IMG/VR virus record: IMGVR_UViG_3300033571_016741
Span: 1 to 21,391 of that record
DNA from: a virus
DNA length: 21,391 nucleotides
Reading direction: 5' to 3' (one strand)
Part shown: positions 3,240 through 19,466 of the stretch, one piece after another
Position numbering within the stretch: the stretch's first letter is position 1
Layout of the letters: every line of letters begins with the position of its first letter
Program-made: the position numbers and the translations under genes
The notes under the pieces: model-generated
What the model was told of the DNA's origin: nothing
The model's input: only the letters and a program-made list of their open reading frames with translations
Databases searched by the model: none

Positions 3240-4037
3240 TCACTGCCAGTTATTGACCACAACAGGATCATGGACTTGATGAGGTTTGGGATGACCGTGA
3301 AATATCACGATATCTGTGCTAGTACCAACTCTGGCTCCTGCGCCTGGGTTATGTGCTCTGCGTCGTGAAAAGTCATAGCCACCGTCGGCACACTGCCAGC
3401 GCCAACTCTGAAAACGATCTCCATCTAAAAATCTACGCTGTTCAGGTTTGATAGTGACCTGTAAAAAATCCTGATCACCTTGGTAGCTTCGTATGGTTTC
3501 ACGTGGATCACGCCGATTAAATTCGTCCCAAACATAACTGAAACGAGCAACATTGAACTTCATGACACTGCTGTTCATACCATTGTGAAAAGGCTTTTGC
3601 AAGTAACGAAAGTCACGTATGGTCCAAAAGTAATCACTGGCGCTCTGGGGTATCCAATCAATATTACGAAGAACCACTGTGTCCAAATCAAGGTACAGCA
3701 AATCACCTGTGTGGTGTTCTGGATTAAACAGTTGCACCTTGTACCACCACGAACGTTTTGGTCCGCCAATGCCATCCCACTCTTGTAAACAATGTTTGAT
3801 CATGTGTGGTGGCACACTACGATCGTGTTCGGTGTAAACATGGAACCGTACCTGGCTCGACAAGTGCCTACAGCACATGTTGTAGAGGTTTTCTACGTAG
3901 CGCCAATCATAGCCTTTGCTGTGTATCACGCATGCCACGTCCACAGGTGCGTGATATTGATGTGCTGGCTCTGCAACTGATTCGCGACTCTGTCTTTCGC
4001 GTTCTTTTCTTGCTCGTTTTTCAGCCTTGGTTTCCAT
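3240..4037 (-). CDS. GT-A type glycosyltransferase-like protein
   Basis: A 265-residue protein. After a very basic N-terminus (METKAEKRARKERERQ) comes a GT-A-like core: VDVACVIHSKGYDW, then RFHVYTEHDRSVP, and the metal/nucleotide-sugar DxD motif in GDLLYLDLDTVVLRN (D117, D119). The later GDQDFL (about 196) matches the second acidic motif of GT8-like enzymes. It should transfer a sugar from a nucleotide-sugar in the cytoplasm; the acceptor is unknown. Its start overlaps the end of the GT17-like gene by 17 bp, so it is the last gene of a four-gene minus-strand operon that begins at 6016. Confidence 0.75.
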   Translation of the reverse strand: METKAEKRARKERERQSRESVAEPAHQYHAPVDVACVIHSKGYDWRYVENLYNMCCRHLSSQVRFHVYTEHDRSVPPHMIKHCLQEWDGIGGPKRSWWYKVQLFNPEHHTGDLLYLDLDTVVLRNIDWIPQSASDYFWTIRDFRYLQKPFHNGMNSSVMKFNVARFSYVWDEFNRRDPRETIRSYQGDQDFLQVTIKPEQRRFLDGDRFQSWRWQCADGGYDFSRRRAHNPGAGARVGTSTDIVIFHGHPKPHQVHDPVVVNNWQ

Positions 4038-4824
4038 GAGTCCAGAATGGATATTGTCGTAGCACTCGATCTACCGCAGGTGGGTACCCTGGGTCCGCAA
4101 CATAACGTGTGACACACTTGTGATTGATGGCATTACCAAAATCAATATTACGGAAATAAGTCAAGGTTTGATCGGTATCTTTGTGTTGACTTTCTATGCA
4201 ACTGGCAATTTTGTTTTTGATGATGTCATCTGACCCCATCCAACCCCAGTGCCAGCCCGCTGATTTAGCATAAGTGCCGCAATGGCTGCGATCTTTGCGT
4301 TTTTGTGCGTGACCCACACCGGCTTGTAATCCTTTGTAGAGATGACAAGGATCATCAAAGTGTCGCTTTTTGGCCACCACATGCCCAGCCCAACCACGAT
4401 CCAACTTTTGATCAAATCGATAGATATACATATCTAGGGCACAACTTATAGGCAGGTCCTGACGATCGACCTCGGCCAGTATTTCAGGCACCAGCTCAGG
4501 ATTCAGTATTTCGTCCAAGTCGCTGTGTATGACAATGTCATTGTCATCGGCGTCAGCATAGCCTGGAACCAAGGCTGCACGTTGGCCATTTTCTATATCC
4601 CAGTTGGTCCAGGATTCTGGTATGTCTAGCTTTATGACCCGCAGTCTGTCTCCCCAATGTGCGTAGCGTTCGATATTGTTGCTGAGATGATAAGGTTTGG
4701 GGCGGCCGCTCATGGTCCTGTTTCCTTCGCAGATAACCCAGCGATCTACCCAGTCTTTGGTTAGTTCCAGACGTATATCCAGCATGTGGAACTCGTCATT
4801 GAAAAGTGTTGTGTCAATGATCAT
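4021..4824 (-). CDS. Family GT17-like glycosyltransferase
   Basis: A 267-residue protein resembling GT17 (beta-1,4-mannosyl N-acetylglucosaminyltransferase type). The pattern is the typical opening IDTTLFNDEFHMLDIRL, a VDRWVICEGNRTMSGRPKP region (26-44) and a DxD at D102-L-D104 in IVIHSDLDEILNPE. The ATG at 4824 is preferred. A TTG at 4830 is in frame and would overlap the previous stop, but ATG lies 2 nt after that stop and gives a natural N-terminus. It probably adds a GlcNAc-like sugar. It is third in the operon after two methyltransferase-like genes. Confidence 0.82.
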   Translation of the reverse strand: MIIDTTLFNDEFHMLDIRLELTKDWVDRWVICEGNRTMSGRPKPYHLSNNIERYAHWGDRLRVIKLDIPESWTNWDIENGQRAALVPGYADADDNDIVIHSDLDEILNPELVPEILAEVDRQDLPISCALDMYIYRFDQKLDRGWAGHVVAKKRHFDDPCHLYKGLQAGVGHAQKRKDRSHCGTYAKSAGWHWGWMGSDDIIKNKIASCIESQHKDTDQTLTYFRNIDFGNAINHKCVTRYVADPGYPPAVDRVLRQYPFWTHGNQG

Positions 4825-4826
4825 GA

Positions 4827-5459
4827 TCAAAACTGATAGATTATTTGATAGGCATCATATATGGGCCGTATATTTTTACTTTCAAGATATTCTACAATAC
4901 GCCGCCCTTTGCCAGTCCTACAATTATCCGACAAATGTCTAGAATTGTCATCAATGGCCACTACAGCACCGGGCCTGAGATGATCTTCAATGGATAAAAA
5001 TTCTTTGAGATGATGTTCTGCACTGGCAGTGTCGTTCTCCCATTTGACGTCCCAGCTGTCAAGATAAAATAGATCAACTTCGTGTAGATCACTTTGTTCT
5101 TGCAAAAATTTCACGCTGTCACTGCAATGACTGGAAAAGTTTTTGTCAACAATGTAGTTGTTGGCTGTATTAACTGCCGTGGGATCAATATCAACGCTTC
5201 TAACAGTACCACCATGATGCTTGACAAATTCTGTAAACAACCAGGCACTTTGTCCATCTTTCCAGTTGCCAGGATTTCTCAAAGTTCCAGTCTCTATAAT
5301 TTTGTAATGTTGTTTGTTTTGCTCTAGTAATTTTTGAAACATCAATTGAAATCCGTTGCCACGCTGACAATGTCCTTCAATTAGGCCACGTTTGGCACCG
5401 CTAGACTTGGGCATGAGAACATTGTAATATTTTGTTTGATACGTTTTTAACCAACTCAT
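4827..5459 (-). CDS. Class I SAM-dependent methyltransferase-like protein
   Basis: A 210-residue protein with class I methyltransferase landmarks of the Methyltransf_24 kind: YKIIETGTLRN (52-61) for motif I, VRSVDIDPTAV (86-96) for the SAM ribose contact, VDLFYLDSWDV (128-138) and LRPGAVVAIDDN (161-172). The glycine-rich loop of motif I is poor (ETGTLRNPG), so SAM binding should be tested. The start at 5459 was chosen because AAGGA lies 7 nt upstream and TAATG couples it to the previous stop; a longer frame to 5483 lacks this. It may O-methylate a sugar made by the adjacent glycosyltransferases (inference). Confidence 0.72.
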   Translation of the reverse strand: MSWLKTYQTKYYNVLMPKSSGAKRGLIEGHCQRGNGFQLMFQKLLEQNKQHYKIIETGTLRNPGNWKDGQSAWLFTEFVKHHGGTVRSVDIDPTAVNTANNYIVDKNFSSHCSDSVKFLQEQSDLHEVDLFYLDSWDVKWENDTASAEHHLKEFLSIEDHLRPGAVVAIDDNSRHLSDNCRTGKGRRIVEYLESKNIRPIYDAYQIIYQF

Positions 5460-6016
5460 TAAGATTTCCTTACCACCCAACATCTTCCCATTCTGCTGAC
5501 TTTGATTCCCCGGGGTTTAAAAAAATCCCACACTGCTTGTTGTAAATCTGGATAACCTTTAGTGTAGTCGTCGCCACCAAACATTTGACCTGATCGTATC
5601 TTGGGCCACCATGCTGTCAAGTCATTGGTGACACACTCATAACTGTGTCCGGCATCCACGTAACAAAAATCCACTGAGTTGTCATCAAATTGCTTGGCGG
5701 CATCCCAGCTCATGCCTTCGATGGCTGTGATGTAATTAGAAATTGGTGCAACGTTATCTGTAAAAATCTGTTTGAGATTTTTTAATATGGCGTTGTCATA
5801 GTGTTCGGGTCCGCCTAGCCAGCTGTCTACACAATAAAATTTTCCAATCTTACCAGCATTGATCAACTCTACTGCGCAATAGGCAGCACTTTTGCCGGTC
5901 CATGACCCCAATTCAACCCAGGTACCCCCTGCAGGAAATTCTTGCACAGCCCGATTCAACAAGTCCGTGTTGCGATGATTCATAAAACCATCTATTTTGT
6001 TATAAAAGTGATCCAT
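5459..6016 (-). CDS. SAM-dependent methyltransferase, Methyltransf_24-like
   Basis: A 185-residue protein. Motif I is clear at VELGSWTGKS (34-43), followed by CVDSWLGG (62-69), YVDAGHSYE (119-127) and GGDDY (147-151), the acidic pattern seen in metal-dependent O-methyltransferases. The start is placed at 6016 (MDHFYNK) because a late-promoter-like CGTAAATA ends 5 nt before it. The longer open frame to 6070 would run over that promoter and into the divergent gene. It is the first gene of a four-gene operon and is coupled by TAATG to the next. No Shine-Dalgarno sequence is visible, so the mRNA is probably leaderless. Confidence 0.78.
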   Translation of the reverse strand: MDHFYNKIDGFMNHRNTDLLNRAVQEFPAGGTWVELGSWTGKSAAYCAVELINAGKIGKFYCVDSWLGGPEHYDNAILKNLKQIFTDNVAPISNYITAIEGMSWDAAKQFDDNSVDFCYVDAGHSYECVTNDLTAWWPKIRSGQMFGGDDYTKGYPDLQQAVWDFFKPRGIKVSRMGRCWVVRKS

Positions 6017-6021
6017 GAATG

Positions 6022-6029
6022 TATTTACG
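6022..6029 (-). promoter_or_regulatory. T4-type late promoter box (minus strand)
   Basis: CGTAAATA on the minus strand matches six of eight bases of TATAAATA and lies 5 nt before the ATG at 6016. It is back to back with a second box on the plus strand in the 40 bp gap 6017-6056. Confidence 0.55.
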
Positions 6030-6043
6030 CCATAATATGCACA

Positions 6044-6051
6044 CATAAATA
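6044..6051 (+). promoter_or_regulatory. T4-type late promoter box (plus strand)
   Basis: CATAAATA matches seven of eight bases of the T4 late consensus, followed by TTAGC and the ATG at 6057. No -35 element or Shine-Dalgarno sequence is seen. It would drive the six-gene plus-strand operon. Confidence 0.65.
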
Positions 6052-6056
6052 TTAGC

Positions 6057-6815
6057 ATGAAAACCATCATTGTTGTTTCTGGGGGTTTCGACCCTGTTCA
6101 TTCTGGACACATACGATTAATCAAAGAAGCTCGTGCGTTAGGTGACATGCTGATTGTGGGCATCAACAGCGACGAGTGGTTGGCCCGCAAAAAAGGTCGT
6201 GCATTCATGCCCTGGACGGAACGCTTGGCAGTGCTTAATAATCTAAAACAGGTGGATGAAGTCTACACCTTTGATGATGACGACGGCACAGCCTGCCATT
6301 TGCTCGAGCAGGTCAGAGCTCATTATCCAGGAGATCGTATCGTGTTTGCCAATGGTGGGGACCGTACTCGCGAAAACATTCCCGAAATGTCAGTGTCCGA
6401 AGTAGAATTTGTGTTTGGTGTGGGCGGAACTGACAAGGCCAATTCTAGCTCGTGGATCCTACAAGAATGGAAAGCACCCAAAACCGAACGTGTCTGGGGC
6501 AATTATCGTGTGTTGCACGAAGCTGGTGCCCAGGTCAAAGTCAAAGAACTCACCGTAGAACCCGGGCAACGACTCAGCATGCAACGTCATCAACATCGTG
6601 CCGAACACTGGTTTGTCACACATGGCACTGCCACAGTGTATACCATAAACAGAAAGAGTGATGCTGAGCTCCTGGGTGAGTTTGGTACGCACCAACACAT
6701 ACATATTGATCGCGGCGAATGGCATCAGTTGTGCAACGAAACCAATCAACCTTTGCGTGTGGTAGAGATACAGTATGGCACGTCTTGTGTTGAAGAGGAT
6801 ATTGAACGTCAATGA
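6057..6815 (+). CDS. Fusion of a cytidylyltransferase-type nucleotidyltransferase and a PMI-type cupin
   Basis: A 252-residue two-domain protein. Residues 1-140 are a nucleotidyltransferase of the cytidylyltransferase/RfaE C-terminal type: GGFDPVHSGHIRLIKEA carries the HxGH motif (H15-H18), then MLIVGINSDEW and the late SSSWILQEW near 130-138. Residues 145-252 are a cupin matching the C-terminal domain of type II mannose-6-phosphate isomerase: RVWGNYRVL, VEPGQRLSMQRHQHRAEHW with likely metal ligands H178, H180, E183, then GEWHQL (H223) and VVEIQYG. Together it could make mannose-6-phosphate and activate a sugar- or polyol-phosphate with a nucleotide (inference). It heads the plus-strand glycan operon and overlaps the next gene by ATGA. 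Confidence 0.85.
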   Translation: MKTIIVVSGGFDPVHSGHIRLIKEARALGDMLIVGINSDEWLARKKGRAFMPWTERLAVLNNLKQVDEVYTFDDDDGTACHLLEQVRAHYPGDRIVFANGGDRTRENIPEMSVSEVEFVFGVGGTDKANSSSWILQEWKAPKTERVWGNYRVLHEAGAQVKVKELTVEPGQRLSMQRHQHRAEHWFVTHGTATVYTINRKSDAELLGEFGTHQHIHIDRGEWHQLCNETNQPLRVVEIQYGTSCVEEDIERQ

Positions 6816-7501
6816 CTCCAATTCCAATTTTTGTAGGCTATGATCCCAGAGAAGCCATTGCGTACCACACCTGTGTGAACAGCATTATTCGTCATGCCAC
6901 ACAGCCTGTGGCCATTGTGCCTGTGGCCTTGAACCTGTTTCAAGATTATGAAGAAACACACGGCGACAATTCAAATCATTTTGTGTACACCAGATTCCTT
7001 GTGCCACATCTCATGAGCTACACCGGCTGGGCCATATTCATCGATGGTGACATGATAGTACGAGATGACATTGTAAAACTTTGGAATTTTCGTAACGAAG
7101 GTCACTATGATGTCATGGTGGTCAAACATGACTACAAAACACGCATGACCACCAAGTACATGGGCGCCAAAAACGAAGACTATCCTAGAAAAAACTGGTC
7201 CAGTGTGATACTTTGGAATTGCAGTTCGTGGCCTAATAGGAAATTAACTCCGCAATTTGTTCAAAGTCAACCTGGCAGTTATCTACACAGATTCTCTTGG
7301 TTGGATGATGACCGCATTGGCGAGTTGCCCAAAGAGTGGAACTGGTTGCCCGATGAGCTAGGTGTCAATCCTGAGGCCAAACTGTTGCATTACACCTTGG
7401 GAACACCTTGCTTTACAGAATTTGCTGACACTCCCCAAAGCGAAGAATGGCATAGAGAACGTATACTAACAGAATATTGTCAACAACGTTCCGATGTCTA
7501 A
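6812..7501 (+). CDS. GT8-like glycosyltransferase
   Basis: A 229-residue protein with the opening FVGYDPREAIAYHTCVNSI typical of phage and bacterial GT8-like enzymes, and a DxD motif in WAIFIDGDMIVRDDI (D78, D80). Later DDDRIGELPKEWNWLPDE and LLHYTLGTPC match the second half of the fold, where a histidine usually helps bind metal. It should use a nucleotide-sugar with retention of configuration. It is coupled to the gene before by ATGA and to the gene after by an 8 bp overlap. Confidence 0.82.
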   Translation: MTPIPIFVGYDPREAIAYHTCVNSIIRHATQPVAIVPVALNLFQDYEETHGDNSNHFVYTRFLVPHLMSYTGWAIFIDGDMIVRDDIVKLWNFRNEGHYDVMVVKHDYKTRMTTKYMGAKNEDYPRKNWSSVILWNCSSWPNRKLTPQFVQSQPGSYLHRFSWLDDDRIGELPKEWNWLPDELGVNPEAKLLHYTLGTPCFTEFADTPQSEEWHRERILTEYCQQRSDV

Positions 7502-8294
7502 CTGGATTTTCCTCAGCAAAGGCGGTAACGATGAGTATGTCAACATGTTTGCCAACAGTGTCGGTGCTTCAGTAACCAACACTGACGATTTTGATTACAA
7601 CAACAATACCAATCCCATTGTGTTACGTGGCATACTCAAACACAAAATCATGAAACAGTGCTGGCAAGATTCAAGAGATTTTTATTACATTGATTCAGGA
7701 TATTTTGGAAATCAACCCAACCCACAAAATCCTCATGGTTGGAAACTGTGGCACAGAATCGTCAAGAACGATCTACAGCACGGTGATATTGTGCCAAGAC
7801 CCAGTGATCGTTGGGACCAATTAAAAATTAAATTACATCCAAGACGTCATGGCAGTCGAATCATTGTTGCTGCTCCGGACGAAAAACCCTGCAGATTTTA
7901 CAATGTAAATTATGACACCTGGGCGGAAGAAACCGTGGCAAAGATCAAACACTACACAGATCGTCCCATAGTGATACGTAAACGGGCACCCAAACGCATT
8001 GATCGCACACACAGCGATCCACTAGCAAAAGTTCTAGCCGAAGATGTGCATGCCTTGGTTACTTTTAACAGTGTGGCAGCTGTGGAAAGTGTGATGCTGG
8101 GTGTGCCAGCATTTACTTTAGCACCAGCCAACGCAGCTGCACCAGTGGCATCGCAGGATCTCAGTCAAATAGATTCTCCCTACTGGGCTGAAGAAGATAA
8201 AATACATGCATGGGCATGCCACCTGGCCTATGGACAGTTTCATGTCAACGAATTACAAGATGGCACAGCTTATAGGATATTAAATGCTAATTAA
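7494..8294 (+). CDS. GT-B-like glycan synthesis protein, paralogue 1 of 4
   Basis: A 266-residue protein. The first half has an unusual conserved-looking block, NPIVLRGILKHKIMKQCW followed by RDFYYIDSGYFGN and GWKLWHRIVKNDLQH. The second half shares a template with the three genes at 8284, 9318 and 11842: DRPIVIR (156-162), then FNSVAAVESVMLGVPAF (191-207), NAAAPVASQDLSQIDSPYW (213-231), and a closing W..HLAYGQF..NEL..G pattern. This layout (phosphate-binding RPxxxR, then NS...E...GxP) is that of GT-B capsule synthesis enzymes such as Kdo transferases, but identity is too weak to name a sugar. No Shine-Dalgarno sequence is seen; translation is probably coupled. Confidence 0.75.
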   Translation: MSNWIFLSKGGNDEYVNMFANSVGASVTNTDDFDYNNNTNPIVLRGILKHKIMKQCWQDSRDFYYIDSGYFGNQPNPQNPHGWKLWHRIVKNDLQHGDIVPRPSDRWDQLKIKLHPRRHGSRIIVAAPDEKPCRFYNVNYDTWAEETVAKIKHYTDRPIVIRKRAPKRIDRTHSDPLAKVLAEDVHALVTFNSVAAVESVMLGVPAFTLAPANAAAPVASQDLSQIDSPYWAEEDKIHAWACHLAYGQFHVNELQDGTAYRILNAN

Positions 8295-9318
8295 AATTTT
8301 CATGGCATCAGCCAGCAATTACCAAGAACGCGACACTTTGCTTAAACTTGGTCAAGGCATCCAAAATTGGGTTACACAGCAAAATGGGCAGACGCCACAA
8401 ACAGACATGGTACGAATAGGTCGCTGGGCCGACCTTGATATTGGTCTCACTCATGCACTGGATTATGAATACAGCGAAGGCTACACTGAATGCGATGTTG
8501 CTGTGTTTTTTGGTAGTTGGAAAGCCAGGGAAAAGAATCATCACATGACCAGAAGCAGTGTGGCTGGGGCCAGTCGATGTTTTGTTTGCATAGAAACACC
8601 GTTGCTGAATCGCGTTACTGACGCACCAAACACACAATGGCGCATGGGTATAAATGGATTTTTATGTCAAAGCGCAACATGGCCTGACAATGATCAAAGT
8701 GCCGGACAACAAAGATTAAATGCATTGGGCATAGGCGAATGGCAAGGCTGGCGCAATAATCCCAATGGTCACATATTGTTAGCATTACAGTTACCGGGCG
8801 ACGCCAGTTTGCGAGGTGTTGATGTCAATGACTGGGCATTTACCGCCATACAAGAAATACGCCAACACAGCCAACGTCCCATTGTGGTAAGAAATCATCC
8901 ACTGTCCTCAGGACGTGCCATGGCCGACCACGAAACCCTGGCACGATTGGTATTGATGCATAACATTACTGGTATTAAATTCAGTGACGGAGCCATGGTG
9001 CCATGGAGTGAAGATTTACGCAGTGCATATTGTACAGTAACTTACACCAGTGGACTGGCCATTGACAGTGTATTATCTGGTATTCCCACTGTGGCCTGCG
9101 ATAACGGAAACTTTGCTTGGCCATTTAGCAGTCACTATCTTGAAGAAATTGAACGGTTAATTCTGGCTGATGCTAATACTGTAAACACTTGGTTGCGTCA
9201 CTTGGCACAGTGTCAATACAGTGTGGAAGAAATGCAGTCGGGTGTAGCCTGGGAAAAATTATTGCCTCCAATTAACACAATACTTGAAAAACTGGCCAAA
9301 GGTGGCAAAAAGAAATAA
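8284..9318 (+). CDS. GT-B-like glycan synthesis protein, paralogue 2 of 4
   Basis: The longest family member (344 residues). The N-terminal half shares DVAVFFGSWKARE (71-83), FVCIETPLLNR (100-110) and QWRMGINGF (118-126) with the gene at 11842. The C-terminal half carries GHILLALQ (162-169), QRPIVVRNHPLSSG (197-210), YTSGLAIDSVLSGIPTV (254-270) and the final W...LAQCQYSVEEMQSGVAW. The HP after RPIVVR is the motif expected at the phosphate-binding end of a GT-B fold. The tail is basic (KLAKGGKKK). An 11 bp overlap links it to paralogue 1 and TAATG to paralogue 3. A start at 8302 (MASASNYQ) is possible. Confidence 0.75.
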   Translation: MLIKIFMASASNYQERDTLLKLGQGIQNWVTQQNGQTPQTDMVRIGRWADLDIGLTHALDYEYSEGYTECDVAVFFGSWKAREKNHHMTRSSVAGASRCFVCIETPLLNRVTDAPNTQWRMGINGFLCQSATWPDNDQSAGQQRLNALGIGEWQGWRNNPNGHILLALQLPGDASLRGVDVNDWAFTAIQEIRQHSQRPIVVRNHPLSSGRAMADHETLARLVLMHNITGIKFSDGAMVPWSEDLRSAYCTVTYTSGLAIDSVLSGIPTVACDNGNFAWPFSSHYLEEIERLILADANTVNTWLRHLAQCQYSVEEMQSGVAWEKLLPPINTILEKLAKGGKKK

Positions 9319-10274
9319 TGAAAGCTGTCAGCTACATAGCCACTTTACCTAGCAAATTGCTGTCAAGACCTCACAGCACCGACCATAAGTTTCTAACTCT
9401 CACTGGGTTCGCACAAGGTGTTTGTGCCTCGGGTGACACGGGCATAGTAGAATACAGCATGACATACCAGCCCAGCGAAGTAGCATTTATGTTGGGATGG
9501 GTGCATGAGCATGGCAAAACTGCACCACACTTGACATTTAGAAAACAAATAGTAGACAATCAAACAGCCAACGGTGGCAGAACTATTATTGCAGACAGCA
9601 ATTTGTTTTTGTACAAAAATACTGCTAATCCAAAAACATATCAGCGTTACAGTTATGACGGTGTGTTTCCTAACACGGGGGAATACTGTGACTCAGATCC
9701 AGATCCAGCTAGATGGACAAAAATCAAACAAGACATTGGATTAGAATTACAACCTTGGAGAACCAAAGGCGATCACGTGCTGTTGTGTTTACAACGTAAC
9801 GGTGGGTGGAGCATGGCTGGAGTCAGCACTATAGAGTGGGCGTTAAATACCATCAGGGAACTACGCAAGTACACCAATCGTCCCATACGCATAAGATCTC
9901 ACCCTGGCGACAAAGGTGCCGGCAGTGATTGCGAAAGAATTTTAAAATTAACACGTATTAACAAGATAGATCGTATTTCTTTAAGCCAGCCACAAATTGA
10001 TTTGGTCAGTGATTTGCACAATTGCTGGGCTGTAGTCAATCATAATTCCAGTCCCACAGTAGGTGCGGCCATTGAAGGCGTGCCTGTGTTTGTGACCGAT
10101 CCTGGCAACAGTCAGTGTGCTGACATTGCCAACACAAACTTGGCAGATATTGAAAATCCTAACATGCCAGACCGGCAACGTTGGGTAGAACGGTTATCAC
10201 AATTCCATTGGTGTCATGACGAAATTGTCAACGGCGTTTGTTGGAATCACATGAAAAAATGGGCTACAAAATGA
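9318..10274 (+). CDS. GT-B-like glycan synthesis protein, paralogue 3 of 4
   Basis: A 318-residue protein. Motifs in order are EVAFMLGW (54-61), RTIIADSNLFLYK (88-100), LQPWRTKGDHVLLCLQR (144-160), NRPIRIRSHPGDKG (187-200), NHNSSPTVGAAIEGVPVF (241-258), DLADIENPNMPDRQRW and a final LSQFHWCHDEIVNGVCW. The NHNSS...GVP block is the best conserved across the family and would bind the donor nucleotide or phosphate in a GT-B enzyme. The gene is coupled to its neighbours by TAATG (start) and ATGA (end). The exact reaction is unknown. Confidence 0.75.
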   Translation: MKAVSYIATLPSKLLSRPHSTDHKFLTLTGFAQGVCASGDTGIVEYSMTYQPSEVAFMLGWVHEHGKTAPHLTFRKQIVDNQTANGGRTIIADSNLFLYKNTANPKTYQRYSYDGVFPNTGEYCDSDPDPARWTKIKQDIGLELQPWRTKGDHVLLCLQRNGGWSMAGVSTIEWALNTIRELRKYTNRPIRIRSHPGDKGAGSDCERILKLTRINKIDRISLSQPQIDLVSDLHNCWAVVNHNSSPTVGAAIEGVPVFVTDPGNSQCADIANTNLADIENPNMPDRQRWVERLSQFHWCHDEIVNGVCWNHMKKWATK

Positions 10275-10993
10275 TAGAAGTAATTACCAGTTTCAATCAA
10301 CATTATTATGATCTAATTGGAAAAGACTGTGTGACAACTTGGCTAGAGCACTGGCCAAAAGATATGACATTGACATGCTATGTAGAAGAATTTAGATTAC
10401 CCGATGATCCAAGAATACAGCAACTTGATTTTTCTGTGCTAGAACAGAGTTACTGGGACTTGCAAAACGAAAACTTCCATAGCAGTGTAAAAAAGTTCAG
10501 TAAAAAAGCCTATCCTTTCATACATGCCATGTGCAACAGCTCTGCTGATTGGATACTATGGATTGATGCAGATGTTCTGTCTGAACATACAATACCAGCA
10601 GATTTTTGGCCCAAACAACTACAGGCTCAATATCTTTCTGCTTACATGGGAGTAATCTACTATGCAGACAAGGATGGTAATCCAGGCAATTGGTTGGTAC
10701 CCGAGACTGGAGTGTTTGCTGTAAACACAAAGCATCCAGGCTTTAGCGAATTCCGTGAAGAATACGCCAGACGTTATCGAGAAAGAGATTTTGATGATTT
10801 ACGCAGAGCCTATGACAATGATGTATTAGGTGCCGCAGTAGGAAAAGTGTCTGCCAAATATCTTGATTGGTGCAATGGTTTGGCCAAGGCATACAAAACG
10901 CCCATGCGCCACACAGTGCTAGGAAAATATCTCATGCACTGGAAGGCCAAACACAGCAAGCACACCTACAGTCAACTCACGGCTGACCAATAA
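10271..10993 (+). CDS. GT-A type glycosyltransferase-like protein
   Basis: A 240-residue protein. The start at 10271 (MIEVITSFNQHYYDL) is chosen because it overlaps the preceding TGA as ATGA; the longer frame from 10238 would overlap paralogue 3 by 37 bp. The GT-A core shows VITSFNQHYYD, WPKDMTLTCYVEEF, and a DxD in WILWIDADVLSEHTIP (D99, D101). It is clearly homologous to the convergent gene at 10972-11799: both have a KFSKKAYP/RFSHKIYA block just before the DxD and a GVFAVN/GLYAIN block after it. It is the last gene of the plus-strand operon, and its final 22 bp overlap the end of that homologue. Confidence 0.8.
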   Translation: MIEVITSFNQHYYDLIGKDCVTTWLEHWPKDMTLTCYVEEFRLPDDPRIQQLDFSVLEQSYWDLQNENFHSSVKKFSKKAYPFIHAMCNSSADWILWIDADVLSEHTIPADFWPKQLQAQYLSAYMGVIYYADKDGNPGNWLVPETGVFAVNTKHPGFSEFREEYARRYRERDFDDLRRAYDNDVLGAAVGKVSAKYLDWCNGLAKAYKTPMRHTVLGKYLMHWKAKHSKHTYSQLTADQ

Positions 10994-11799
10994 CTTTCCT
11001 TACGATCAACTATGAGATCCTTGGCATGACTGCGCCCTGTATCTTTGCGCCGACCTTTGAGATGATCTAGGTAAGCACCCCAAGCTGTATTGATCAACGG
11101 ATGACCTTCGCCGCGGATTAATCCAGCACTCCAGTTTAGTTGTTGCCATGTGGGATTCAGTGCTTGTACTTCTTTGCGTGTTTCATCAAATACCCAACAA
11201 TCATTCCACTCAGCCATGGTCATGAGTCTGCCTGAGTCATATGCCAATTGAAACTCTCGCAACCAAGACCTTGTCACAGGATCCGTTAAGTTTATCGCAT
11301 ACAATCCGCACTCGGTAAATTTTTTCTCTCTACCAAGAAACGCCAAGCCTACTGGGGGAGGTATTTGACTTTCAATAAACTCTAGAGTGATAGGGGTATG
11401 GCATACCATGTCAGCATCCATCCAAAACAACACATCTGCTGTGGTGTTTTTTGCGGCATGGCACACCGCATATATCTTGTGACTGAAACGTATGGCGTCC
11501 CAACGGAAACCAATGCCCGGCTGTTTGCCTTTGCGATCTGGCGGTCCCATGGCAACTTCACCACGTGCTCGTGGATCGTTTTTCCAACGCTGTTTGAAAG
11601 CCACAAGCTCGGGAGAACTTGAATGTAAATCACGTACAATCAAGTTTGATGCGCTTTCCTCTATGTCATGATCTTCAGGATATACCATTAGCGTAACTTC
11701 TTGAGGCCAGTTTTGCAAAAACGTTTGAATCAATCGTCTAGCATATTTGTCATATCCAGCACGATGAAAAGTTGTTACCACAGAGAATTTACGACTCAT
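10972..11799 (-). CDS. GT-A type glycosyltransferase-like protein, homologue of the convergent 10271 gene
   Basis: A 275-residue protein with FSVVTTFHRAGYDKYA, a WPQEVTLMVYPEDHD strand, then RFSHKIYAVCHA and the DxD in DVLFWMDADMVCHTPIT (D128, D130). GREKKFTECGLYAINLTDP and a SAGLIRGEGHP segment follow. Differences from its homologue include a 30-residue insert rich in charged residues (about 75-98, GPPDRKGKQPG). AAGGA lies before the ATG at 11799, unlike the leaderless genes nearby. It stands alone on the minus strand between two plus-strand genes. It may be an inverted duplicate or a separately acquired copy. Confidence 0.8.
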   Translation of the reverse strand: MSRKFSVVTTFHRAGYDKYARRLIQTFLQNWPQEVTLMVYPEDHDIEESASNLIVRDLHSSSPELVAFKQRWKNDPRARGEVAMGPPDRKGKQPGIGFRWDAIRFSHKIYAVCHAAKNTTADVLFWMDADMVCHTPITLEFIESQIPPPVGLAFLGREKKFTECGLYAINLTDPVTRSWLREFQLAYDSGRLMTMAEWNDCWVFDETRKEVQALNPTWQQLNWSAGLIRGEGHPLINTAWGAYLDHLKGRRKDTGRSHAKDLIVDRKESYWSAVS

Positions 11800-11841
11800 G
11801 TTTTTCCTTATAACTATATTGAACTATTTAATACTGTTATC
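11800..11841. promoter_or_regulatory. Divergent intergenic region with weak promoter-like boxes
   Basis: This 42 bp AT-rich gap separates the 11799 (minus) and 11842 (plus) starts. Plus-strand TATAACTA and the near-palindrome TATTTAATA (reverse TATTAAATA) resemble late boxes. TATTTAATA sits 8 nt before the plus ATG, where no Shine-Dalgarno sequence is seen. On the minus strand AAGGAAAAAC precedes the ATG. Matches to the late consensus are imperfect. Confidence 0.35.
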
Positions 11842-13660
<1,819 letters not shown>

Positions 13661-14385: not shown

Positions 14386-15444
14386 TTATTCCTCCGTGGC
14401 TTCTTCTTCAGTACTTACCGTTTCTTTCTGATTTGCGAAGTCGGCCATGACCTTGTCCAAACAACCTTCCTCATTGCTTTCCCAGGCCTTGCGGAACTGT
14501 TTGATAATTTCGCCATCGCTGGTCACAAACATGAGTCGATTGCCGTCTTTCTTTAACAGGCCTTTCTTTTCAGCCAGGTCCACCAGTCCACTGTAGGGAT
14601 TCATACCTGTTTCATAGGGGATCTTGACCTGCACACCCTCGAAAGGTTTGGCATAGCGTGTTTTCATTACCTTACAGCCGGCACGGATACCCATGACTTC
14701 GGAGATCTTGTTGCCATCCTCGTCTTCTTTGAGCTTCATTTTCTTCATGGCCACAACAATACTGCTTGCATAGATAAAGCCTTGACCACCTGAAATCTTG
14801 TCGTCGGGATCAAACATGTCTTGTGACGCATAGGTATGATTGGTACACACCAAGCCCACATTGTAGCTACCAAACATGTTGACACAGTTACGCACAAGTG
14901 CTGTCAGTGCCTTGGGTTTACGACCCAAGTCGCCTTTCATTTCACCTGCATCAAACTGATTTACATCTGTGGGTGTCAACAACATGCCCAAGCTGTCAAT
15001 GATAAACATGACCTTGGGACGCTCACCATCGGGCAAGGCCTTGTAGTCAGACATGAATGTTGAAATGGTCTTGGCCACATCGTCAATCATGGCCATGCTC
15101 AACTTGAGCAGTTTGCTTTCACTGGTGTCTACACCAAGGGCCTTGAGCCAGTCCTCATCCAAGGCATTTTCTGTGTCAATCAACACAACAAAGATACCTT
15201 GTTGTTGTGCGTTTCTAGCAATGTTGCCTGAACAGATGTAACTCTTTCCGGCACCTGACTCGCCCGCAAACACAGTGACCTTGCCCAGGGGAATGCCTTT
15301 GTTGAAGTCGCCCGAGATCAAGTAGTTGAGTGCATAATTGCCGGTGCTGATCCAGTCTGTGGGGTCGTTAAAACCAATGCTGAGCCCGTCAATGCTCTTG
15401 GTAATTTCCTTTCGGAACTTGCTTACATCAAATGGTTTTCCCAT
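14386..15444 (-). CDS. uvsX: UvsX, RecA-like recombinase
   Basis: A 352-residue strand-exchange protein of the RecA/UvsX family, which forms filaments on single-stranded DNA for recombination-dependent replication and repair. Walker A is GESGAGKS (61-68), with GIFVVLIDTENALDEDWL after it and Walker B in VMFIIDSLGML (about 145-155). VCTNHTYASQDMF and GGQGFIYASSIVV match the DNA-binding loop and core regions. The C-terminus is acidic (STEEEATEE), as in RecA-type proteins. AAAGGA precedes the ATG, and a sigma-70 promoter lies at 15480-15508, so it is probably an early gene. It heads the operon with the acidic protein and the uvsY-like gene. Confidence 0.95.
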   Translation of the reverse strand: MGKPFDVSKFRKEITKSIDGLSIGFNDPTDWISTGNYALNYLISGDFNKGIPLGKVTVFAGESGAGKSYICSGNIARNAQQQGIFVVLIDTENALDEDWLKALGVDTSESKLLKLSMAMIDDVAKTISTFMSDYKALPDGERPKVMFIIDSLGMLLTPTDVNQFDAGEMKGDLGRKPKALTALVRNCVNMFGSYNVGLVCTNHTYASQDMFDPDDKISGGQGFIYASSIVVAMKKMKLKEDEDGNKISEVMGIRAGCKVMKTRYAKPFEGVQVKIPYETGMNPYSGLVDLAEKKGLLKKDGNRLMFVTSDGEIIKQFRKAWESNEEGCLDKVMADFANQKETVSTEEEATEE

Positions 15445-15479: not shown

Positions 15480-15508
15480 AGTGTAATATTTTTTGACAAA
15501 ATTGTCAA
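15480..15508 (-). promoter_or_regulatory. Promoter of the uvsX operon, with a palindrome over the -35 box
   Basis: On the minus strand TTGACA (15503-15508), a 17 bp spacer and TACACT (15480-15485). The -35 box lies in a perfect 18 bp dyad, TTTGACAA-AA-TTGTCAAA (15492-15509), which could be a repressor site. The TGA in the -35 box is the stop codon of the upstream gene. Confidence 0.75.
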
Positions 15509-16689
15509 ATTTTTTTGATGGGCTGATAGCCAAATGTGTCTATACATTCTTGCTGTATGTGCTTTGGTAATTTGGCAAACCCACTCTCTGTGAGGCAATC
15601 TGGCCAAGAGTCGTCTTTTATCCTATAGTAAAATAACATCCAGTTTTCTTGGATAATATCCAAGGGCACGATTTGATAAATGGATTTATGACACCAGTTC
15701 AACTCACGTGCAAGTTGTTTTGTCAAGGTCACCATGTTGTCAATATTTTTTATAAGATGATGATAGTTGTGTTCGATGTCTTGTTCAATGCTGTCTTGTT
15801 GAAAGTGTATGTTCTGCAACCAAAATTTTGTGTTTTGAATCACTGCTTCTAACCGCTGTTCTTGATCAATGATATCATCGTACTCGGGTATTGGCAAATA
15901 GTTTTCAAAGGTACAATATCCAGCCTGTTTGAGATACACTAGATTCTTTGCATAACCCGCAATCATAAACGGCTGTCGATTCAATATGGTGATCCAGGTT
16001 TTCTCACTCACAATTGGAGTCCAAAGCATCATGGTTTCGCTGATGATTCTAAAACTTGATTGAGCATATAGAGATCCATCAAACGGATATCCACTGGCAT
16101 GATCGGCTCCGTGACAAGCGTTGATAACATCACATGCATCCAACCTTCTTACATGTTGTTTGACAAACTGAGAAAATTCTAAATCGCTTAATTCTGGTAA
16201 TAATTTTTTTGATGCCTGATAAATTGCCTCATTCATAAAAAAAGACCAGTCACAGTGGTTCAAGAGACCGTTTGTGTATAACTTATACAACAGTCTGATG
16301 CGATTTGCTTTGTTTGGTTTTCCAGTGGGAAATATAAATCTACCGGTATTGGCATTCCACTTTGGGTTCACAGTGCTGGTATTTTCAACTCGCATGTTAA
16401 AATCTAGATTCAGTAAGTCTACATCAATCTTATACAGTTGGTTGCCCAGTTCGAGTTCAATTTCAGGGCTTAGATCATGACTGGGGTGACGCCACCAATA
16501 CACTCTATGACCAAGCTTCATATCTTTAATCAACGACAAAAAATCTTTGATGCTGTCATTGTTGACGTATTCCAAAGCATAAAACAAAATAGCACGATCC
16601 TGTGGAACCAACATCAATTTTTCTTTCAACGTTGCTGGTGATTCCGCATACAGATTAAATCCGTACGGATAGTAAACAGAGTCGTTCAT
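15505..16689 (-). CDS. Putative glycosyltransferase (fucosyltransferase-like C-terminal pattern)
   Basis: A 394-residue protein that shares a layout with the gene at 19505-20467. A middle segment (RFIFPTGKPNKANRIRLLY) is followed by FRIISETMMLWTPIVSEKTW, then RQPFMIAGYAKNLVYLKQAG and a YDDIIDQEQRLEAVIQ segment. The order SEK..., R.PF...G, L...G and D...I....R resembles the nucleotide-sugar-binding half of GT10-type and related GT-B enzymes, but this is by pattern only. The start at 16689 (MNDSVYYPYG) is chosen because GGTAAATA lies 7 nt before it; the longer frame to 16755 would run into the divergent gene. It looks more AT-rich than uvsX next to it. Confidence 0.6.
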   Translation of the reverse strand: MNDSVYYPYGFNLYAESPATLKEKLMLVPQDRAILFYALEYVNNDSIKDFLSLIKDMKLGHRVYWWRHPSHDLSPEIELELGNQLYKIDVDLLNLDFNMRVENTSTVNPKWNANTGRFIFPTGKPNKANRIRLLYKLYTNGLLNHCDWSFFMNEAIYQASKKLLPELSDLEFSQFVKQHVRRLDACDVINACHGADHASGYPFDGSLYAQSSFRIISETMMLWTPIVSEKTWITILNRQPFMIAGYAKNLVYLKQAGYCTFENYLPIPEYDDIIDQEQRLEAVIQNTKFWLQNIHFQQDSIEQDIEHNYHHLIKNIDNMVTLTKQLARELNWCHKSIYQIVPLDIIQENWMLFYYRIKDDSWPDCLTESGFAKLPKHIQQECIDTFGYQPIKKI

Positions 16690-16696
16690 AGGCTGA

Positions 16697-16704
16697 TATT
16701 TACC
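16697..16704 (-). promoter_or_regulatory. T4-type late promoter box (minus strand)
   Basis: GGTAAATA on the minus strand, followed by TCAGCCT and the ATG at 16689. It matches six of eight late-consensus bases and no Shine-Dalgarno sequence is present. It is paired with the plus-strand box at 16720. Confidence 0.55.
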
Positions 16705-16719
16705 AACTACTTTTATACC

Positions 16720-16727
16720 TATAAATA
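16720..16727 (+). promoter_or_regulatory. T4-type late promoter box, perfect consensus (plus strand)
   Basis: TATAAATA is identical to the T4 late promoter consensus. It is followed by TCGCATT and the ATG at 16735. No ribosome-binding site lies between them, so the mRNA is predicted to start at or within a few bases of the ATG. Confidence 0.78.
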
Positions 16728-16734
16728 TCGCATT

Positions 16735-17604
16735 ATGGCCAAACACTTTGATCAAATTTTAAATCCTCAAGAAATAGACGAATTGATTGCCTATGTGGCT
16801 ACTCCGGATGACCGCACAGATAACCGCCCTGATGTGAGAAGTAAACATCCAAGATGGAACCAGGATGTTTGGCCGCAACACATTATACAAGGTGCCATGG
16901 ACAAATTGTTTCCAGGTGGTTACAACATTGAAGAAATTACATTTCAAGACACCAAAATAGCACTTAAACCACATACCGATAATGGTAGTATGCCGGGCAC
17001 TAGCGGCAAAACAATAATGTTCACCTTGTGGGCGGACCCTGTGGCGCATACTGTGTACTTTAAAAATTATTGGACTGGTTGGGAACACTCGGGAGTATTT
17101 TTTACCAGAACACCATGGACTCCTTATCAATACAAGATTCCTAATCGTCAAGGTGATCTTGTCAAAGTTGAGGACATACGAAAACTTTTGCAACAATGTC
17201 AACAACATCCTGACTCTGTGACCGAATTTGATGTCACCGCAGAATTCATAAGCACACTTGAAGATGTTATACACAAACGTAGCCTACCAAGACTGGCCTA
17301 TCAAGATCAAAATCTTAAAACTGGATATATTCAACCTGGGCCACGAAGAAATGACTATGAAACTTTGACAAACTATGATCCTGCTGGAAAGTTTGACACA
17401 GTCTTTCATGAAACATATTTGTCTGACATAGCTATCGAAGATTTACATGGGCTTGCCGTGGAGTCGGTAATCACGTGGCAACCAGGAGGAGCTCATGTGT
17501 TTAATCGAGAACAATTACATTGCTCTAGTAGTTGCCACACTAGAAAAATTTTCTGCACAATTTTTTATCATGAATCTGCCGATTCTACCAAGCACTTCCA
17601 ATAA
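16735..17604 (+). CDS. 2OG-Fe(II) oxygenase-like protein
   Basis: A 289-residue protein with a possible double-stranded beta-helix iron site: H80-T-D82 in LKPHTDNGS, a distal H262 in REQLHCSSS, and R270 eight residues later as a 2-oxoglutarate anchor. Such enzymes hydroxylate or demethylate using 2-oxoglutarate and oxygen. WQPGGAHVFNREQLHCS resembles the late part of phage and phytanoyl/prolyl hydroxylase-type proteins. Spacing between HxD and the distal H (180 residues) is long, so an inserted domain (about 100-230) is likely. It stands alone on the plus strand with a perfect late box. Its last 37 bp overlap the radical SAM gene. The substrate could be a sugar, protein or nucleobase. Confidence 0.6.
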   Translation: MAKHFDQILNPQEIDELIAYVATPDDRTDNRPDVRSKHPRWNQDVWPQHIIQGAMDKLFPGGYNIEEITFQDTKIALKPHTDNGSMPGTSGKTIMFTLWADPVAHTVYFKNYWTGWEHSGVFFTRTPWTPYQYKIPNRQGDLVKVEDIRKLLQQCQQHPDSVTEFDVTAEFISTLEDVIHKRSLPRLAYQDQNLKTGYIQPGPRRNDYETLTNYDPAGKFDTVFHETYLSDIAIEDLHGLAVESVITWQPGGAHVFNREQLHCSSSCHTRKIFCTIFYHESADSTKHFQ

Positions 17605-19466
17605 CGATTTTTTCTTTGATAGTGATAGGCCACTTTGACAAATTGTGTGTCATTGTCAATGGTTTGATCCCAATGATCTATTTTGATATTTCCAGATTCA
17701 ATTCCATACAGTGTTTTGATTAGTTCTGCATCATATTGTCGGTATATGGGATAACTTTGTCTCCAATCAACACAGGCATCCATGTTAATGCTGACTAAAT
17801 CTTTAAAGTCAACATCATATACATCTTTTAAAAATTGTGTTAGACATTGAGCATATTCTTCTCTACGACCGTGTAGCACTATGGATGTAGCGGATTTGAA
17901 TTCCCAATAGACATCATCTAGTATTTGTCTACCCCAAATATTGTTGTGTTCAAACACACTGGTCAAGGCGTTTTTTGTTGCTGTGTGTTCTTGTTGCACA
18001 AGATTGTTTTTTGTAGAAAAATACGTGATCCAGGCTTGCACAAAATCTAATTCATTGATGCGATACATTTGTTTCATGTAGTTCATGACATGGTGTGCCC
18101 ATCCATAAAAATACAACACTATCAACCAGTGGCTGACAAGATGTCCCTGTATCATTTCATCGTAGGTGATACAATTGGTGCTTTTTACAACATCAACTTT
18201 TTCAATAATATAACTGTCTGGATCAGCAATTTGCAACCAAAAAGTATCCAATGGCAACGTTTGTGCTTGTAAACCATGCTGTCGTCTATAGTCGGGTTGA
18301 CCCATGGGTGCATTATAGGTCAACACCAAGGGATGAACCATGAGAAAATCTCGTTGTCCTAGATCTATCAACTTCTGTAAGCCTTCTTTGAAACTGTTGA
18401 GTGTTTCTCCTGGTAGTGGCCAAATAATTTCACTATAGGTAGGCACATTGTGTTTTTTATAAAACTGCATGGCCTCATTGGTGGCTCCGTCACGAATATT
18501 GAATCTTTCAATTGCTTTCAAGGTATTGGGATCCATGCTCTGCATGGCAAATGTCACACCTTTGAACAGTTTGGTCTTGGCTTCATGATCCAACATGACA
18601 ATTTTTTGCACTCGTTCTGGATTGTTTTTGGCCCAGGTTACGTCCCAGAATTTGGGATATCCTGTTCGTAATTTTGCTTCAACTACCCATTTGGTGATTT
18701 TGTAATCTCTCTCAAACATGCCCCAGTTGCTGTCACACACGCTAACATATTCAATTTTTCTAGCAGACATCCACTCAATTTCTTTGGCAATACGATTTAG
18801 ATCAAACAGTTTGGCCTTGTTCCAGTAACTGTCGCCAATGTCACAAAATGCACAGTGATAGGGACAACCACGCATGGTTTCTATGGTGACTTGCCATAAA
18901 AACTTTTGACCGTGTTGTTGTTCATATTTGTCAATTATGTCATCGTAGAAGCCCGTCAGAATTGGGCTGGGCAATTGGTCCAAATTTTCAGTGCGACTGG
19001 GTTGTTGTATTATTTTTGTTTGTTTGGTAATGATGCCAGCACGATCGGTCAACTCTAGTACGTCCTTACACAGCAACACCTCCTGAAATATCTGTTCATT
19101 TTCTCCCAAAATTGCAATATCAAAGTAATCATGAGTTCGAACAAAGGCTGGATCATGTTTAGACACCTGTGGTCCGCCCACAATGGTGCGGCACTGTGGC
19201 CATTTTTGTTTTATGGCCTGGGCCAACTGTTTGTTGAATTCCCAGTTCCATACATAGCAACTCATGGCCACTGCATCGGGCACAAAATCAAGTTCTTGTA
19301 TCCATTTTTTTATATTGACTTTTTCAATCATGACTTCAGCTACTTGCCAATTTTTGACCACATCAGCATTTTGAGCAGCCGTGAGCCATTGATAGCTTAT
19401 AGCCAAAGGCAAAAATTTATTGGGACCGTAGTTGTCAACTACCTGAACAAGAACAATGTTTTTCAT
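17568..19466 (-). CDS. Class B-type radical SAM protein with B12-binding-like N-terminus
   Basis: A 632-residue protein. Residues 1-160 form a cobalamin-binding-like Rossmann domain (MKNIVLVQVVDNYGP, CRTIVGGPQVSKHDP, IAILGENEQIF). Residues 190-430 are the radical SAM barrel, with ETMRGCPYHCAFCDIGDSY giving cysteines 201, 205 and 208, then YVSVCDSNWGM and IIWPLPGET, the GE-type motif of the family. The 200-residue C-terminus has no motif I recognise. No DxHxxG cobalamin motif is visible. Such enzymes methylate unreactive carbons or rearrange substrates; the target here is unknown. A weak late-type box lies 6 nt before the ATG and no Shine-Dalgarno sequence is seen. Confidence 0.88.
   Translation of the reverse strand: MKNIVLVQVVDNYGPNKFLPLAISYQWLTAAQNADVVKNWQVAEVMIEKVNIKKWIQELDFVPDAVAMSCYVWNWEFNKQLAQAIKQKWPQCRTIVGGPQVSKHDPAFVRTHDYFDIAILGENEQIFQEVLLCKDVLELTDRAGIITKQTKIIQQPSRTENLDQLPSPILTGFYDDIIDKYEQQHGQKFLWQVTIETMRGCPYHCAFCDIGDSYWNKAKLFDLNRIAKEIEWMSARKIEYVSVCDSNWGMFERDYKITKWVVEAKLRTGYPKFWDVTWAKNNPERVQKIVMLDHEAKTKLFKGVTFAMQSMDPNTLKAIERFNIRDGATNEAMQFYKKHNVPTYSEIIWPLPGETLNSFKEGLQKLIDLGQRDFLMVHPLVLTYNAPMGQPDYRRQHGLQAQTLPLDTFWLQIADPDSYIIEKVDVVKSTNCITYDEMIQGHLVSHWLIVLYFYGWAHHVMNYMKQMYRINELDFVQAWITYFSTKNNLVQQEHTATKNALTSVFEHNNIWGRQILDDVYWEFKSATSIVLHGRREEYAQCLTQFLKDVYDVDFKDLVSINMDACVDWRQSYPIYRQYDAELIKTLYGIESGNIKIDHWDQTIDNDTQFVKVAYHYQRKNRYWKCLVESADS

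Follow-up and report, generated by a model that had tools for sequence, protein, structure and literature searches.

The closest described counterparts of the locus analysed here are the late promoters of bacteriophage T4 (gp55/gp33/gp45), whose box occupies positions -13 to -6 (PMC1524935). They share with the phage clade considered below a TATAAATA-type box in which the first T is the variable position, a location upstream of virion genes, and a gp55-family sigma factor, which we found in one relative and not in the 21-kb window. A further likeness comes from related jumbo phages, where an ATAAATA motif has been described upstream of structural genes (PMC5259590). However, the T4 boxes lie mostly 15-30 nt from the ATG and are accompanied by a Shine-Dalgarno (SD) sequence, and at 4-8 nt from an ATG none was observed where 1.5 were expected; leaderless late mRNAs are thus not the norm in T4, as the preliminary description of this DNA had stated. 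The second point of comparison is provided by the leaderless mRNAs of bacteria and of the lambda cI gene. In these the AUG opens the message or lies close to its 5' end, as is predicted here, with no SD and a preference for AUG that is strong during leaderless initiation in Escherichia coli (PMC9031893). They differ in that we predict this organisation for a whole late class of a lytic phage, with a 5' end that would be set by a phage-specific sigma factor.

The window, i.e. the whole stretch of 21,391 bp that was analysed, is an IMG/VR fragment that can be assigned to the jumbo phages of the T4 superfamily by its UvsX, gp32-like and gp44-like genes. When UvsX is compared, the named phages closest to it, at 64-70% identity, are Phosso, Atu_ph07, Vibrio phage 2.275.O and CBB. 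A UvsX scan of IMG/VR gave 80 contigs with 83-99% identity, mostly short fragments. Spacing statistics were obtained from six longer contigs of relatives and from the window (seven sources), with a simple longest-ORF rule as gene caller, the starts being picked by ORF geometry.

The divergent gap at 16690-16734 measures 45 bp and separates minus-strand ATG 16689 from plus-strand ATG 16735. It contains a plus-strand box TATAAATA at 16720-16727, followed by the 7-nt spacer TCGCATT, and a minus-strand box GGTAAATA at 16704-16697, followed by the 7-nt spacer TCAGCCT. No SD is present within 18 nt upstream of either ATG, and no sigma-70-like site above chance was seen upstream of them. The gap is therefore exactly as it had first been described. 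We propose, with a probability of about 85%, that two T4-type late promoters stand back to back in it, starting transcription about 6 nt past the box and giving leaderless mRNAs, in a clade that has two classes of late promoters. On the basis of the box positions, the mRNA 5' ends are predicted to fall 0-4 nt from ATG 16689 and ATG 16735.

The functions of the two flanking genes are less clear than suggested. The 289-aa ORF at 16735-17604 (+) and the 394-aa ORF at 15505-16689 (-) had been called oxygenase-like and putative glycosyltransferase, respectively; these labels could not be upheld, as no Pfam, PHROG or NCBIfam family scored above its cut-off. PDB sequence searches with the two proteins gave no meaningful match, and the predicted structure of the 289-aa protein was unusable (mean pLDDT 33.6). 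A direct IMG/VR scan with the latter returned no relatives; its homologue in the related locus L040 came from a tblastn search within loci of relatives. Elsewhere in the window, region 3240-13632 holds many genes for glycans and nucleotide sugars (a GT8 glycosyltransferase, methyltransferases, a heptose-type nucleotidyltransferase-cupin fusion and a nucleotide-sugar epimerase), a B12-binding radical SAM protein of 632 aa is encoded at 17568-19466, and a second radical SAM-like ORF, truncated, occupies the window start (2-811).

Whether relatives keep the distance from box to ATG had been set as a test of the proposal, and this distance is conserved. L040 retains the divergent pair, with protein identities of 39% (289-aa protein, aligned gap-free from M1) and 41% (394-aa protein, start within one residue) over the alignments and conservation from the first residues. 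Its gap also measures 45 bp and keeps both boxes and both 7-nt spacers, with 30 of 45 positions identical to those of the window. Likewise, among orthologues of the gene starting at 6057, the spacer between box and ATG is exactly 5 nt in 22 of 26, the flanking sequence having diverged.

This gene belongs to a second divergent gap of like design (6017-6056, 40 bp), absent from the preliminary description, in which the spacing is 5 nt on both sides. The minus-strand box CGTAAATA (6029-6022) precedes ATG 6016 of a methyltransferase gene (Methyltransf_24, 5459-6016); in the orthologues of L047 and L069, the box stands 4 and 7 nt before the ATG. The plus-strand box CATAAATA (6044-6051) precedes ATG 6057 of a nucleotidyltransferase and cupin gene (CTP_transf_like, MannoseP_isomer; 6057-6815). 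Both genes are predicted to be leaderless, and the 6057 start cannot be shifted downstream because the first strand of the fold begins at residue 3-4. Five divergent gaps with two predicted leaderless starts were seen altogether, two of them in the window.

TAAATA is rarer than chance in the window, with 6 occurrences where 12.5 were expected. For four of the six, the spacer to an ATG is exactly 5 or 7 nt; a fifth is 25 nt before an SD-led ATG and the last is intragenic. With the count restricted to the first ATG per ORF, the 4-8 nt interval holds 3 boxes, and dinucleotide shuffles give 0.2 +/- 0.4. The box at 25 nt (ATTAAATA, 11825-11832, minus strand) offers a contrast, since it leads to ATG 11799 through an AAGGAAA SD. 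Another contrast is the UvsX gene (14386-15444, minus strand), which is SD-led (AAAGGAAAAAACATG) and devoid of a late box. Replication-type genes at 1651-2952 also contrast with the late class, with TATAAT-like boxes 30-40 nt upstream and SD sequences. The genes behind the window's own boxes are accessory and not virion genes; in relatives, close boxes precede genes of the virion structural, portal and terminase families, among others, and the UvsX and gp44 orthologues have an SD and no late box.

The arrangement extends to the relatives. Across the 80 UvsX-relative contigs, TAAATA occurs 4-8 nt before the ATG of long ORFs far above permuted hexamers, peaking at 5 and 7 nt. In the seven sources, the TAAATA-to-ATG distance is bimodal: the box lies at 4-8 nt for 77 starts and at 15-30 nt for 84, with 3 starts in between, at 9-14 nt. 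The excess at 4-8 nt is observed in all seven (11, 5, 12, 8, 12, 13 and 3 boxes, against 0.2-1.3 in dinucleotide shuffles). The sparse zone at 9-14 nt fits two separate modes, as a leader of this kind would be too long for leaderless initiation and too short for an SD. The rule in the clade is thus one of two classes and not that late equals leaderless, about half of the late boxes being ordinary leadered ones. Close boxes also have their own genomic context: 39 of 77 close starts lie behind a divergent gene, versus 70 of 538 box-less starts, and 18 of 77 are operon-internal, versus 307 of 538. Dyad symmetry around the boxes, hinted at by examples such as CCCGTAAATACGGG, was rejected, as it did not exceed expectation over 139 boxes.

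Translation signals separate the two classes. An SD-like tetramer within 18 nt of the ATG is found for only 2 of 77 close-box starts (5% in shuffles), versus 59 of 84 distant-box starts (15-30 nt; 20% expected) and 243 of 538 box-less starts (20% expected). Start codons at 4-8 nt spacing are ATG in 77 cases, GTG in 2 and TTG in 1. A pyrimidine stands just before the ATG in 62 of 77 close starts (81%), against 45 of 79 distant (57%) and 250 of 538 box-less ones (46%); this excess fits the A of the ATG being the transcription start. As the box of T4 spans -13 to -6, +1 would indeed coincide with the A of the ATG when the spacer measures 5 nt; the observed spacers would give leaders of 0-4 nt if the choice of start is slightly flexible. 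Such flexibility would be needed at 4-nt spacing, where the canonical start would fall inside the ATG. At 7-nt spacing, the sixth base after the box is a pyrimidine; both points count against the proposal. With 5' ends placed according to T4 geometry, the initial idea of leaderless late mRNAs is supported by this 4-8 nt class that lacks an SD and starts almost always with ATG.

The close-box starts, 142 in all, represent 54 protein families, with a spacing that depends on the family: one family has the box at 5 nt in 23 of 23 members, and a virion protein has it at 7 nt in 16 of 19. Other families use both modes. Orthologues among the MPRLSLY proteins have the box at 6, 7 or 8 nt without SD, or at 16 nt with SD, and those of the gene at 10972-11799 have it at 23-26 nt with SD (L073, L076) or at 4-6 nt without (L039, L094, L017). 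Judging from these sequences, leadered and predicted leaderless late promoters would coexist in the clade and orthologues would switch between the two modes.

We thus propose that a gp55-like late sigma factor would guide RNA polymerase to each TAAATA box, that transcription would start about 6 nt past the box, leaving the mRNA 5' end on the ATG or within about 4 nt of it, and that the ribosome would need no SD to initiate at the 5'-terminal AUG. The clade would then have a leaderless class (box 4-8 nt from the ATG) and a leadered one (15-30 nt, with SD). A gp55-family late sigma factor was detected in the contig G006 of a relative (5871-6233, E 6.6e-25), i.e. in one of 15 clade contigs, all of which are fragments; gp45 (PF02916) was undetected in these fragments by a search that had no positive control. 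We infer late timing, the exact transcription start and leaderless translation in the clade from this ensemble.

One could also assume that the boxes are incidental or secondary and that the true transcripts start farther upstream, with ordinary leaders. The sequence TATAAAAG at 16718-16711, upstream of the minus-strand box, would agree with such an arrangement, as would those close boxes elsewhere (18 of 77) that have a co-directional gene no more than 20 nt upstream. We nevertheless consider it improbable, since a leader made from an upstream start would have no SD, neither start of the 45-bp gap is preceded by an above-chance sigma-70-like site, and the box-to-ATG spacing is exact even though the spacers diverge. 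It is even harder to accept that TAAATA 4-8 nt before the ATG acts in the mRNA as a translation-initiation element, such as an AU-rich enhancer, and is no promoter. Its position at -14 to -9 does overlap the usual ribosome-binding window in a class that lacks an SD. Yet the box occurs at two distances and the SD only at the longer one (15-30 nt), and orthologues move between both positions. In addition, close boxes prefer divergent gaps to operon interiors, where they are depleted, both of which favour a promoter. The motif is moreover the T4 late box, in a clade that has a gp55 homologue.

Misassigned start codons, with translation from downstream SD-led starts and normal leaders, seem to us the least credible of these explanations. 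It is true that the starts were chosen through ORF geometry, but an internal alternative start with an SD exists in only 3 of 77 close genes, below the 8 of 79 and 48 of 538 of the other classes. Furthermore, the homologues of both flanking genes align from M1, and the GGFDPxHSGH core of the nucleotidyltransferases comes no later than 6-8 residues after M1.

How far does this organisation extend among T4-like phages? CBB, Phosso, Atu_ph07 and Vibrio phage 2.275.O share with the clade the late motif, the gp55 family and a related UvsX, but their boxes lie 15-60 nt upstream and the 4-8 nt class amounts to 0-2 per genome. Under the first-ATG rule, boxes at 4-8 nt number zero in T4, CBB, Phosso, S-PM2 and Vibrio phage 2.275.O, and the 2 of Atu_ph07 are at chance level (4.1 expected). 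In all six phages, the excess of boxes lies at 15-30 nt or farther out. By contrast, the Pelagibacter phages HTVC008M and Mosig (Kyanoviridae) share with the clade a close-box peak, gp55 and the ribosomal protein bS21, and differ by their smaller genomes and a spacing of almost only 5 nt (11 of 14 close boxes at exactly 5 nt in HTVC008M, 6 of 7 in Mosig). HTVC008M is a cultured pelagiphage from a family other than that of the clade. The 5-nt boxes of HTVC008M (L120-L127) and Mosig (L241-L247) often read TATAAATAGTATTATG, and their peak is separate from the clade's. The cyanophages S-PM2 and P-SSM4, related to these two phages, are without a close peak, and methylophage Melnitz gives a weak signal with 3 close boxes.

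bS21 is encoded by HTVC008M, Mosig, Melnitz and 5 of 6 long clade contigs, and is absent from T4, CBB, S-PM2, P-SSM2, P-SSM4 and KVP40. It accompanies the predicted leaderless class in every leaderless lineage, a co-occurrence that we regard as a lead from few lineages. The idea that bS21 strictly predicts leaderless genes was rejected, as Phosso, Atu_ph07 and Vibrio phage 2.275.O have it without a close class. The use of bS21 to deduce the host of the clade was also abandoned, the single 39% match in a Firmicute being uninformative. The clade bS21 gene adjoins a ClpX-like gene, and the two overlap in one contig (L225 1453-2875; L227 278-1701). IF3 acts against leaderless initiation. Atu_ph07, a phage without the leaderless class, carries a gene annotated as translation initiation factor 3 (L084 244-747). 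In Bacteroidetes phages, bS21 has been linked to late expression, leaderless messages being unmentioned (PMC9723584). A tentative hypothesis, which we consider rather doubtful at this stage, would see a translational time lock in the leaderless late class, and phage bS21 may adapt late ribosomes to such messages. With an AUG that lacks an SD, only transcripts starting at the AUG, from the late promoter, would be translated, and early read-through or antisense transcripts over such genes would stay silent.

T4-type late promoters and leaderless mRNAs are each known, and what appears new within the literature searched is their combination as a predicted leaderless class of T4-like late genes: we found no report of leaderless late genes in T4-like phages in this largely open-access literature. 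Gene callers that reward an SD may misplace leaderless starts. The orthologues that switch mode permit a direct comparison of leadered and leaderless expression, and the presence of bS21 in every leaderless lineage studied here points to a specific function that could be sought for the phage-encoded protein. Our analysis predicts that a large and common group of aquatic T4-like phages would make dozens of late proteins from leaderless mRNAs, unlike the T4 model.
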